Of a stretch of DNA of 64,000 bases, positions 1,698-5,378 are shown one piece after another. Source of the DNA: Marmoricola sp. Leaf446 (GTDB lineage Bacteria > Actinomycetota > Actinomycetes > Propionibacteriales > Nocardioidaceae); assembly GCF_001424755.1 (NCBI RefSeq), contig NZ_LMRF01000001.1, positions 331,294-395,293 of the forward strand. Direction: 5' to 3'. Both the position numbers and the translations under genes were made by a program. The stretch's first letter is position 1; each line of letters starts with the position of its first letter. The notes under the pieces were generated by a model. That model was not told the DNA's origin, made no database searches, and saw only the letters and a list, made by a program, of their open reading frames with translations.

Positions 1698-2600
1698 GTG
1701 ACCACTGCCGCGACCCCGTCCCCGTCCCGCTCGCTGTCCGACCTCGCCGCCTCGGGCGTCGTGCTCGTCGACGGGGGCATGGGCACCCTGCTCCAGGACA
1801 TGGGGCTGGACGACGGTGGCTCGGGCGAGCTGTGGAACCTCGACCGCCCCGACGCCGTCCGCGACGCCCACCGGGCCTACGCCGAGGCCGGCGCCCGCGT
1901 GCTGACCACCAACACCTTCGGCGGCACCCGGCCGCGCCTGGAGATGCACGGCCTCGGCGACCGCGTCCACGAGGTCAACGAGGCCGGCGCCCGGCTGGCG
2001 CGCAAGGAGGCCGACCGCGTCGGCGCGCTCGTGGCCGGCGACGTCGGCCCCACCGGCGAGCTGATGGCCCCGCTCGGCACCCTCGAGCCCGCGGAGGTGC
2101 AGGAGCTGTTCGCCCAGCAGCTGCGCGGCCTGGTGGCCGGTGGCATCGACCTGGTGCTGGTCGAGACGATGAGCGACGCCGCCGAGGCCGAGGCCGCGCT
2201 GGCCGCGGCGCGCGAGGTCGCGCCCGAGCTGCCCGTCGTCGTGACGTTCAGCTTCGACACCAACCTGCACACGATGATGGGCCTGGACCCCGCCGAGGCC
2301 GTGCGCCGCCTGGCCGCCGCCGGCGCGGACGCCGTCGGCGCCAACTGCGGCCGCGGCCCCGAGGAGATGGCAGCGATCGCCGCGGCGATGGTCGCGGTGC
2401 GTCCCGACGGGCTGCTGCTCGTCGCGCAGTCCAACGCCGGGCTGCCGCAGGTCGTCGGCGACCACTTCGAGTACGACGCCACCCCCGACGACATGGCCGC
2501 CCACGCCGTCGCGCTGCGCGACGCCGGCATCGACCTCGTCGGGGCCTGCTGCGGCTCCACCCCGGCCCACCTGGCCGCCATGGCCGACGCCCTGCGGTGA
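1698..2600 (+). CDS. mmuM: Homocysteine S-methyltransferase family protein
   Basis: 300 residues of the Pfam S-methyl_trans TIM-barrel family, which moves a methyl group from S-methylmethionine, betaine or a similar donor to homocysteine, giving methionine. The three zinc-binding cysteines are present: Cys217 in GANCG and Cys284-Cys285 in GACCG. The N-terminal DGGMGTLLQ strand is also conserved. The donor cannot be told from sequence, so the symbol is a best guess. GTG start preceded by TAGGCT. The stop overlaps the start of the next gene by GTGA, implying translational coupling with tag. Confidence 0.85.
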   Translation: MTTAATPSPSRSLSDLAASGVVLVDGGMGTLLQDMGLDDGGSGELWNLDRPDAVRDAHRAYAEAGARVLTTNTFGGTRPRLEMHGLGDRVHEVNEAGARLARKEADRVGALVAGDVGPTGELMAPLGTLEPAEVQELFAQQLRGLVAGGIDLVLVETMSDAAEAEAALAAAREVAPELPVVVTFSFDTNLHTMMGLDPAEAVRRLAAAGADAVGANCGRGPEEMAAIAAAMVAVRPDGLLLVAQSNAGLPQVVGDHFEYDATPDDMAAHAVALRDAGIDLVGACCGSTPAHLAAMADALR

Positions 2601-3259
2601 GCTCCGGCCCGGACCCCTCGGACCCCTCGGACCCCTCGGACCCCTCGGGCCCCTCCGGCCCCTCGGACTCCTCCGGCCCCGACGGCTCGGTGCCGGGGGA
2701 GGACGGCGTACGCCGCTGCCCGTGGGCCGGCACGCCCGGCACCATGCGCGACTACCACGACACCGAGTGGGGGCTGCCGGTCACCGACGAGCGCGGCCTG
2801 TTCGAGCGGCTGTCGCTCGAGGGCTTCCAGGCGGGTCTCTCCTGGCGCACCATCCTGGACAAGCGCGAGCGCTTCCGCGAGGTCTTCCACGGCTTCGACC
2901 CCGACGCGGTCGCCGCGATGGGCCCCGACGACGTCGAGCGCCTGCTCACCGACACCGGCATCGTGCGCAACCGCGCCAAGGTCGAGGCCACGCTGCGCAA
3001 CGCCCGGGCGACCCTGGCGCTGCGCGAGGCGGAGGGCCTGGTGGCGCTGGTCGCGGGCTTCGCCCCCGCCTCCGACCCCGAGCCGCGCGCGCCGGCCGAG
3101 GTGCCCACGACCTCCCCGGAGTCGGTCGCGCTCTCGAAGGAGCTGCGCCGCCGCGGCTTCGGCTTCGTCGGCCCCACCACCATGCACGCCCTCATGGAGG
3201 CGACCGGCCTCGTCGACACCCACCTCCTCGGCTGCCACCGGCGCGGCTGCGCCCGCTGA
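2597..3259 (+). CDS. tag: DNA-3-methyladenine glycosylase I
   Basis: Cytosolic base-excision-repair enzyme that removes N3-methyladenine from alkylated DNA. From the GTG at 2597 (overlapping the preceding stop as GTGA) it is 220 residues. The Tag zinc ligands are all visible: Cys41 in RRCPW, His54 in YHDTEWG, His209 and Cys213 in THLLGC. The first 38 residues are a low-complexity extension rich in Asp-Pro-Ser, encoded by a 9-bp tandem DNA repeat and not found in ordinary Tag. A later start is possible, but I see no convincing ribosome-binding site for one. Confidence 0.88.
   Translation: MSSGPDPSDPSDPSDPSGPSGPSDSSGPDGSVPGEDGVRRCPWAGTPGTMRDYHDTEWGLPVTDERGLFERLSLEGFQAGLSWRTILDKRERFREVFHGFDPDAVAAMGPDDVERLLTDTGIVRNRAKVEATLRNARATLALREAEGLVALVAGFAPASDPEPRAPAEVPTTSPESVALSKELRRRGFGFVGPTTMHALMEATGLVDTHLLGCHRRGCAR
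2608..2672 (+). repeat. 9-bp tandem repeat inside the 5' end of tag
   Basis: Four near-perfect copies of the unit cggacccct, followed by degenerate copies (cgggcccct, ccggcccct, cggactcct). In the tag frame they encode repeated Asp-Pro-Ser, then Gly-Pro-Ser. Unit length is a multiple of three, so slippage would change length without breaking the frame. Confidence 0.85.
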
Positions 3260-3370
3260 GCCCGGTGCCCGGCGGCGGCCGGGGCGGGCGGCGTACGACG
3301 GGGATGGTCGTGTCGATGTCAGGTCCCGGTCGTCAGGAGGGTGCTGTCACGACGCTGGTCTGACACCGAG

Positions 3371-3404
3371 GTGCTGATTCACCGGACGTCCGGTGAATCA
3401 GCAC
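3371..3404. repeat. Perfect 34-bp palindrome 1 (core TTCACCGG-acgt-CCGGTGAA)
   Basis: Left arm gtgctgattcaccgg, centre acgt, right arm ccggtgaatcagcac: the whole element equals its own reverse complement. It shares the TTCACCGG/CCGGTGAA core and its length with the element at 3564-3597. It lies 112 nt after the tag stop codon. Confidence 0.85.
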
Positions 3405-3563
3405 GACTGCCACACCAGCGTCGCGGAACGACCCGTCGTACGACCCTGGTGTGGCACTCGACCCCCACCTCGTCGTACGCCGGGCCACGTGACCCGCAAC
3501 CGGACGAACCGGGCACCCGGTCGGCCTTTCCTGCCCTCCGACGCCCGGGATGTCCGATCCGAC

Positions 3564-3597
3564 GGGCAGTTTCACCGGCTGGCCGGTGAAACTGCCC
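3564..3597. terminator. 34-bp palindrome 2, likely terminator of the MFS gene
   Basis: 16-bp perfect arms gggcagtttcaccggc and gccggtgaaactgccc around a 2-nt centre. It begins 6 nt beyond the stop codon of the leftward MFS gene, a position that fits transcription termination. There is no T-run, which is common in actinobacteria. It is also a member of the same repeat pair as 3371-3404. Confidence 0.6.
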
Positions 3598-3602
3598 CCG
3601 GC

Positions 3603-5378
3603 CTACCCGGCCACGTGCCGCCCGCCACCCGGACCGGACGCACCGTCGACGGGGGTGTCGGCCCGGTGGGAACCACCCGCGGCGGGGGCGTTGTCCGCCC
3701 GGTTCTCCGCCCGGGCGGCGGCACTGGCCGAGGTGCTGCGCAGCTCGACGGCGGGGAGCAGGGTGAGGATCGCGAAGGCGAGCAGCATCACGACGCCGCC
3801 GCCGAGCAGGACGAGGCTCATCGAGTCGGCGAACCCGACCTGGAAGGGGTGGGCGACGAGGTCGCTCATCCGGCCGATGATCGAGGAGTCGTCCTGCACC
3901 TGCCCGAAGACGCCGCTGCCCTGCGAGGGGTCCTGCAGGGCGGAGAGCACCTGCTCGTCGACCCGGCCCTGCGGGATGCGGCCGTCGGAGGCGGCGCGCT
4001 CCAGCTCGGGACCGGCGGCGCGGAAGGCCTTCTGGATGTTCTCGCCGAGCGTGCTGAACAGCAGCGAGAGGAAGATCGCGACGCCGAGCGTGCCGCCGAG
4101 CTGACGGAAGAAGGTGGCCGAGCTCGTGGCGACGCCGATCTCGCGCGGCGGCACGGCGTTCTGGACGATGATCGTCAGCGGCTGCATGCACTGGCCCAGG
4201 CCCAGGCCGAGGAAGACCATCCCGCCCATCACCCACAGCAGGCTGGTGTCGGCGGAGACGAACGACAGCGCGATCATCGCCAGGCCCGCCATGCCGGAGC
4301 CGACGATCGGGAAGATCCGGATCGCGCCGGTGCGGGAGGTGATCTGCCCGGTCACGATGCCGGCGCTCATCATGCCCAGCACCATCGGCAGCATCATCAG
4401 GCCGGCCTCGGTGGGGGAGGCGCCGTGGACGATCTGCATGTACTGCGGCAGCACCGTGATCGCGCCGAACATCGCAGCGCCCACGATGACGCTCGCACCG
4501 ATCACGACCGCGGCGGCGCGCAGCCTGAAGATCCGCAGCGGGATCAGGGCGTCGTCGCCCATCCGTCGCTCGGCGAGCAGGAAGGCGGCGATGCCGACCA
4601 GCCCCACGGCGTACGCCGCCAGCGAGCGCCCGGAGGTCCAGCCCCACTCGCGACCCTGCTCGGCGACGGTGAGCAGCGGCACCAGCGCGACGACCAGCGA
4701 GGTGGCGCCCCTCCAGTCGATGCGGGCCTCGCGGCGCACGTGGTGCAGGTGCAGGTTGCGGGTGACGACGAACAGCGCCGCTATCCCGATCGGCACGTTG
4801 ATGAGGAACACCCAGCGCCAGCCGGTGACGCCGAAGATGGTGTCCTGCCCGGCGAACAGGCCGCCCGCGACCGGCCCGAGCACGCTCGAGGTGGCGAACA
4901 CGGCCATGAAGTAGCCGGTGTACTTCGCCCGCTCCCGGGGGCTGACGATGTCGCCGATGATGGCGAGCACGAGCGTGAACAGCCCGCCGGCGCCGAGCCC
5001 CTGGACCGCCCGCAGCGCGGCGAGGTTCCACATCGAGGTGGCGAACGAGCAGGCCGCCGAGCCGATGATGAACAGCGTGATCGCGAACAGGAACAGCTTC
5101 TTGCGGCCGTAGAGGTCGCCGAGCTTGCCGTAGATCGGCGTCGTGATCGTCGAGGTGATGAGGTACGCCGTGGTGACCCATGCCTGGGCGGACAGTCCCT
5201 GCAGGTCGTCGGCGATGGTGCGGATGGACGTGCTGACGATCGACTGGTCCAGCGCGGCCAGGAACATGCCCAGCAGCAGCCCCGACAGGATGGTGAGGAT
5301 CTGGGCGTGGGTGTAGTCGCCGTGCTCCTCGGGGGCGTCGGGCGCGGTGTCGGCGGCGCGGGGCGAGGTGGCGGTCAC
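3603..5378 (-). CDS. MFS transporter, DHA2 (EmrB/QacA-type) family
   Basis: A 591-residue inner-membrane protein with about 14 hydrophobic segments, the usual size of proton-driven multidrug exporters of the DHA2 family. It shows the DHA2 start LAALDQSIVSTSIRTIADDL, motif A GKLGDLYGRKK and motif C GPVAGGLFAG. The substrate is unknown; export of toxic compounds is the family role. An inverted repeat (TTGCG-TCG-CGCAA) next to the likely -10 suggests repressor control, but no regulator gene is adjacent. Confidence 0.9.
   Translation of the reverse strand: MTATSPRAADTAPDAPEEHGDYTHAQILTILSGLLLGMFLAALDQSIVSTSIRTIADDLQGLSAQAWVTTAYLITSTITTPIYGKLGDLYGRKKLFLFAITLFIIGSAACSFATSMWNLAALRAVQGLGAGGLFTLVLAIIGDIVSPRERAKYTGYFMAVFATSSVLGPVAGGLFAGQDTIFGVTGWRWVFLINVPIGIAALFVVTRNLHLHHVRREARIDWRGATSLVVALVPLLTVAEQGREWGWTSGRSLAAYAVGLVGIAAFLLAERRMGDDALIPLRIFRLRAAAVVIGASVIVGAAMFGAITVLPQYMQIVHGASPTEAGLMMLPMVLGMMSAGIVTGQITSRTGAIRIFPIVGSGMAGLAMIALSFVSADTSLLWVMGGMVFLGLGLGQCMQPLTIIVQNAVPPREIGVATSSATFFRQLGGTLGVAIFLSLLFSTLGENIQKAFRAAGPELERAASDGRIPQGRVDEQVLSALQDPSQGSGVFGQVQDDSSIIGRMSDLVAHPFQVGFADSMSLVLLGGGVVMLLAFAILTLLPAVELRSTSASAAARAENRADNAPAAGGSHRADTPVDGASGPGGGRHVAG

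Follow-up and report, generated by a model that had tools for sequence, protein, structure and literature searches.

Short palindromes scattered between bacterial genes are known from REP/REPIN sequences and from the related arrangements termed REPtrons and TIRtrons. The known partner enzymes of REP-like palindromes are the RAYTs, and one survey describes its CGTC class as having no dedicated transposase (PMC3733652). Other described systems that have to be considered here are MITEs with an autonomous partner, homing endonucleases of the EDxHD/Vsr-like type and the AbiE type IV toxin-antitoxin modules. We describe a family of palindromes of Marmoricola sp. Leaf446 and its relatives, together with a gene found between inverted copies of them, which will be referred to as Y. 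No such element was found in a literature search, subscription papers being mostly outside its reach.

The palindromes of a convergent spacer and their copies

The window, i.e., the whole stretch of 64,000 nucleotides that was analyzed, contains two palindromes (P1 and P2; Table 1) in a spacer of 343 bp (3260-3602), where a + strand gene ends at 3259 and a - strand gene ends at 3603. The first-pass annotation had described them as equal in length (34 bp), sharing the core TTCACCGG-N4-CCGGTGAA within one convergent spacer, with further outer arms stretching the inverted repeat of P1 imperfectly. All of this was borne out, and the outer arms (3350-3359 and 3414-3423) pair in the predicted RNA fold. 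We take the left neighbor to encode a DNA-3-methyladenine glycosylase I-like protein, and the right one presumably encodes an MFS transporter-like protein. Allowing gaps of 0-30 bases, the core occurs twice in the window and in none of 100 shuffles; the 34-nt hairpins of P1 and P2 have folding z values of -9.0 and -8.6 against shuffles, with predicted energies of -27.9 and -29.4 kcal/mol, respectively. Rfam gave nothing above threshold: around P1 it listed microRNA families (E 0.007-0.69), and there was a single weak match to an sRNA, all taken as chance.

P1 and P2 do not match each other as a pair. The layout of P2, with its half-box, is that seen at the ends of a full element located elsewhere in the genome (the Y1 element, Table 1), and P1 has a B box, as do the ends of X, a gene related to Y. 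The half-box of P2 reads GGGCAG on the - strand (3531-3536) and is degenerate beyond those bases; the distal box GCCCGGTTCGTCCG is similar, by eye, to CCCGAGTTGTCCG or CCCGATCTGTCCG beyond the half-box of other copies. Judged from its sequence, P2, which ends 5 bases short of the stop of the gene at 3603, has the layout of a solo Y1 end. The B box TGCCACACCAGCG of P1 is seen again at other copies and beside gene X.

Table 1. Coordinates of the features in the window and of the Y1 element (G000, Marmoricola sp. Leaf446; C, contig).
Feature	Position	Strand	Description
P1	3371..3404	.	perfect 34-bp palindrome, 17+17, core TTCACCGG-ACGT-CCGGTGAA
P2	3564..3597	.	34-bp palindrome, 16-2-16, core TTCACCGG-CTGG-CCGGTGAA
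P1 imperfect inverted-repeat extension	3350..3423	.	outer arms 3350-3359 and 3414-3423
B-type hairpin adjoining P1	3404..3460	+	arms 3404-3423 and 3441-3460, 90% complementary
B box TGCCACACCAGCG	3408-3420	+	within the hairpin adjoining P1
P2 half-box and 27-base spacer	3531..3563	-	Y1-type layout
Distal box GCCCGGTTCGTCCG	3501..3514	-	beyond the P2 half-box
Left neighbor gene	2597..3259	+	220 aa, codon-model gene call
Right neighbor ORF	3603..5378	-	591 aa
Full Y1 element	G000:C5:308974-310248		~1.27 kb, not in the window; one ORF between two inverted palindromic ends
Gene Y of the Y1 element	G000:C5:309075-310022		316 aa

In the genome (3.81 Mb, nine contigs), the exact core is present at 28 places, all of which were inspected; its gap always measures 4 bases (0-12 allowed), and the reversed control gave no match. 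All 28 copies are intergenic (17 in convergent, 10 in tandem and one in divergent gaps, with genes called by a codon model for which the window served as training set), so that the dispersed, REP-like palindromic family with differing arms suspected in the first-pass annotation is supported. Twenty-seven copies adjoin the 3' end of a gene; as a small baseline, convergent and divergent gaps hold 19% and 46%, respectively, of the intergenic bases in the 24 gaps of the window. In 17/28 copies the sequence GGCAG, a half-copy of the arm, starts 28-29 nt beyond the nominal palindrome end, vs. 2.4% expected per copy. The palindrome overlaps the gene stop, or is situated within 40 bases of it, in 16 of these 17 half-box copies, and the half-box faces away from it; only the right end of the Y1 element departs from this. 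The B box was counted nine times, in 5 of 27 own-genome loci. Besides these copies, three GGGCAGTTT palindromes with non-exact cores (G000:C1:1013242, 1013469 and 1013697) form a tandem triplication with spacings of 227-228 bp, and runs of N lie near the palindrome at two loci of this genome (L007 and L013).

Gene Y, its inverted ends and their distribution

Core copies about 1.2 kb apart enclose a single gene. One of these genes is Y; at the loci examined, no other ORF, and thus no AbiEii toxin gene, was called between its ends. Neither Y nor X homologs were detected in the 64-kb window. Searching Y in 24 genomes of the genus provided 30 loci at 21 distinct sites, and most of the closer homologs sit between inverted palindromic ends that differ in sequence. 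The flanks were compared through the longest exact inverted match between the 400 bp at either side, with a threshold of 15 bp. Such matches measured 15-48 bp for 19/22 closer homologs of the genus and reached the threshold for 1/8 more distant ones; in the control, none of 47 window genes did so (maximum, 14 bp). In a wider sample the threshold was reached at 17/24 loci of the same family, 8/9 of family f23 and 6/11 of other families, leaving 3/22 genus loci and 13/44 wider loci without such a match. Y adjoins TTTCACCGG palindromes, or lies between them, at 4 of 108 named loci. Of 148 genomes sampled from the whole class, 120 had matches to a Y profile, many of these matches being distant relatives and perhaps not such elements. 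There is good support for the ends and Y being inserted as one unit. Short units of about 11-30 bp, in tandem or otherwise repeated and differing in sequence from case to case, flank several more distant Y-like genes and also some gene ends that lack Y (L208, L209, L211, L213, L065 and L072); they may represent another repeat type tied to the Y protein superfamily.

Gene X is shorter than Y and also lies between inverted palindromes, with exact matches of 32-33 bp in G000 and G009; its homologs at L040 and L007 have an inverted match of only 11 bp, one of them having a cut flank. PADLOC placed X near AbiEi. P1 probably derives from a sister element carrying X, a link that rests on few loci.

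The core distribution within the family is patchy. Exact cores were found in 12 of 58 relatives, some of them being, by eye, single matches inside coding sequence, and of the 245 family genomes, 28 contain TTTCACCGG-N4-CCGGTGAAA, with as many as 48 places in one genome, and the other 217 have none. Among the matches listed, several genomes show one dominant loop (CTAG, CCGG, GTAC or TGCA), and the named species genomes (at least 80) are all Nocardioides, Marmoricola, Pimelobacter or Nocardioidaceae. A looser pattern applied to the 24 genus genomes gave 55 places in G000, 52 in G006, 46 in G003 and 33 in G009, with lower counts in G023 (18), G010 (13), G002 (11) and G017 (11), and none for the reversed control; the places of G003 among the matches listed are TTCCCCGG-N4 or TTACCCGG-ACGT.

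The scattered copies match the ends of the resident Y in eight genomes of the family: in G000, G002, G003, G009 and G010, where Y lies between two copies of the sequence scattered in that same genome, and also in G247, G197 and G224. In G003, Y1 occupies the site orthologous to that of G000, with its own TTCCCCGG ends; 6/7 of the TTCCCCGG-type copies examined there carry the half-box (46 being the looser-pattern total), and 0/7 stand at the G000 copy loci compared. The fetched Y copies of G028, G085, G182, G211, G123 and G230 have no full TTCACCGG core in their flanks, these genomes holding 48, 6, 25, 17, 19 and 27 core copies, respectively; this mismatch covers the fetched copies only, and each of the six genomes has further Y-like genes. 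The best Y of G023 has other ends, and the second Y of this genome is truncated where its contig stops. A named MAG contig (L101) carries a Y next to TTCACCGG-GTAC that may be at the same place as this second Y.

Short, MITE-like derivatives were found in f23, another actinobacterial family, in which the ends read AATGATCACGTTCA. This sequence is present at 29 sites in G337, 27 in G322, 26 in G305, 11 in G400, 6 in G382, 2 in G372 and 1 in G351, and is absent from the other 8 of the 15 f23 genomes (reversed control, 0). The 27 sites of G322 resolve into ten inverted pairs enclosing 86-210 bp, five singles, and one inverted pair that encloses 1242 bp with Y and whose ends match the scattered copies. 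No target-site duplication was recognized by eye in the flanks of the ten short elements; some autonomous elements make none. More inverted segments, of the CATGATCATG type, occur beside single AATGATCACGTTCA ends in G322 (L321, L322 and L323) and may form another family of MITEs.

Comparison of orthologous gene pairs provides one empty site for the whole element. Between a hydrolase and an AlkB gene, G002 has about 100 bp and no Y, and the Y element is present in G000, G009 and G003; its right boundary in G000 and G009, the side where the boundary could be placed, is the palindrome end. This comparison rests on four genomes, the other 20 being uninformative, with neither an AlkB-like gene nor Y beside the hydrolase. 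In G000 and G009 (L221 and L222), the hydrolase frame enters the inserted palindrome and its TAG stop lies in the palindrome loop. For a solo copy, the M16 peptidase-dapB pair is informative: the copy directly follows the stop codon in G000 and G009, and a short spacer without it is found in G003 (whose peptidase is 87% identical), G017, G012, G001, G005 and G013. Of 23 copies in G009, 17 are at loci common to G000, one is a one-sided match and five match no compared locus; much of the set has therefore been inherited, which speaks against recent movement. Some places recur with different contents, such as the gene pair (L014 and L046) that encloses an X-type copy in G000 and the complete Y element in G002. 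The site after a gene ending in AELGLVA, which we assume to be alpha-glucan phosphorylase-like, holds Y in G018, G019, G007 and G011 (L201, L202, L203 and L206), and a similar-ended gene has X alongside in G000 and G002 (L007 and L040); this site is a possible hot spot.

Neither Pfam nor NCBIfam identified the Y protein as a known transposase, and a PDB sequence search with it returned nothing below E 0.8. AbiEi_4 matches 19 of 22 Y proteins, and E205, D237, E248-F-D250-G and K254 are invariant in all 22. An initial reading as a DUF559 protein was dropped as Pfam gave no confirmation, and the nuclease assignment therefore rests on the fold. In the model of one homolog (L139, Nocardioides sp. 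URHA0020), built from four sequences (pLDDT 83.9 for the best model, 53-65 for the other four), residues 202-315 align to I-Bth0305I (3r3p; Z 12.3, rmsd 2.3 over 95 residues) and to Vsr (1cw0; Z 10.5), and residues 1-199 to the AbiEi structure 6y8q (Z 11.6, rmsd 5.8); Foldseek alone gave E <0.001 to AbiEi only (Vsr, E 0.13; I-Bth0305I, E 0.34). Y is thus predicted to join an AbiEi-like winged-helix half to a Vsr/I-Bth0305I-like nuclease half. Y is under constraint: between G000 and G009, Y1 has a dN of 0.046 and a dS of 0.26, compared to 0.015 and 0.216 for the M16 peptidase used as yardstick. A second Y at a shared site is more divergent (dN 0.26, dS 0.75), and this dS would fit replacement in place, without proving it.

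Origin of the palindromes

The palindromes are best explained as solo, gene-less ends of small mobile elements, the predicted nuclease Y of the element being the proposed agent of their spread. We consider this explanation likely, and grade it no higher since six genomes lack a matched end. The most economical inference is that Y is the enzyme that moves the ends. Y would bind its own palindrome through the AbiEi-like half and the nuclease half would cut at or beside it, after which repair or strand transfer would place a copy of the end, or of the complete element, at another site. Persistence of the copies right after stop codons may reflect either minimal harm at such positions or a preference for them. 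A more ambitious claim, toward which the balance tips only slightly, is that these elements form a new class of bacterial transposable element that occurs in several Actinomycetia families. Its sole mobilizing enzyme would be a fused AbiEi-like/Vsr-like nuclease that recognizes the palindromic ends and co-evolves with them, and REP-like solo ends and MITEs would be left behind downstream of stop codons.

Alternatively, an unrelated enzyme could move the ends in trans, Y being a passenger such as a stabilizing antitoxin-like or homing gene. The nuclease activity of Y is a prediction, and the fetched Y copies of six genomes mismatch the abundant core, both of which speak for a passenger; nevertheless, Y is the sole ORF between the ends and is found again and again between inverted ends that differ widely in sequence. 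With Y1_Tnp as the one alternative enzyme family searched, we judge such a trans-acting enzyme rather unlikely. If that enzyme were a Y1 transposase of the IS200/IS605 type, the repeats would be of the REP/RAYT kind, with which dispersed intergenic palindromes and a cognate gene between copies do agree, as in the REPtrons (PMC3733652). The search for a REP-associated Y1 transposase, suggested in the first-pass annotation, found no Y1_Tnp (PF01797) match in any of 16 genomes, five of them with 11-53 core copies, whereas the positive control gave matches in 5 of 14 control genomes; moreover, GTAG or CTAC occurs within 10 bases beside the core arms in just one of the 28 copies, and a REP/RAYT origin is hardly credible.

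Two further explanations dispense with mobility. Ordinary transcription terminators, or mRNA 3' hairpins under selection at gene ends, would agree with the strong hairpins (see above) and with the position of 27/28 copies beside a gene 3' end, but a scan for intrinsic terminators found no stem with a T run in 3200-3720, and selection for hairpins leaves unexplained the shared sequence, the half-box at a fixed offset, the inverted pairs around one gene family and the empty sites; as a full account this is improbable. The predicted hairpins of mobile ends may also stop transcription or protect mRNA, and a terminator role is possible as a side effect. As for operators through which Y or another regulator controls the neighboring genes, AbiEi antitoxins bind inverted repeats and the N-terminal half of Y resembles AbiEi. 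The twin operators offered as an option in the first-pass annotation are, however, not supported: the copies lie at gene 3' ends, mostly convergent (17/28) or tandem (10/28) and only once (1/28) between divergent genes, and operators leave empty sites and short derivatives unexplained; we regard them as very improbable.

Comparison with known systems

Should Y indeed mobilize its ends, this would be a second, unrelated pairing of repeat and nuclease, and such a way of life would have arisen more than once; a function would also be suggested for a multi-copy protein family, and recurrent hairpins at gene ends would be explained. If the elements form a new class, many apparent lone AbiEi antitoxins would be transposase-like or homing-like proteins. 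Y elements would thus point to an unrecognized route for the spread of bacterial repeats.

Each of the known systems shares some of these features. The N-terminal half of Y is similar, by fold and by AbiEi_4 matches, to the AbiEi antitoxin of AbiE type IV toxin-antitoxin systems; unlike these, Y is a single gene with an added nuclease-like half and no second gene between the ends. The modeled Vsr-like nuclease fold is shared with the EDxHD/Vsr-like homing endonuclease I-Bth0305I, but Y is found outside introns or inteins, in intergenic positions between inverted palindromic ends, with solo copies elsewhere. The short elements of G322 share their inverted ends with a longer, gene-bearing element, as MITEs do with an autonomous partner (cf. 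PMC10969869); on the other hand, the gene is no known transposase by Pfam or NCBIfam, and no target-site duplication was recognized. Lastly, as in REP/REPIN with RAYT (TnpA-REP), REPtrons and TIRtrons, there are many short intergenic palindromes, the cognate gene lies between copies of the repeat or between inverted repeats, and the sequence types vary by genome (PMC3733652; PMC8266576; PMC3116915). RAYT enzymes are HUH/Y1 transposases, none of which was found here (16 genomes), whereas Y has an AbiEi-like half and a predicted Vsr-like nuclease fold, and the GTAG tag is missing (1/28 near). In its working the system resembles REP/RAYT, or MITEs and their partner element, but the Y1 transposase of REP/RAYT was absent from the 16 genomes searched.
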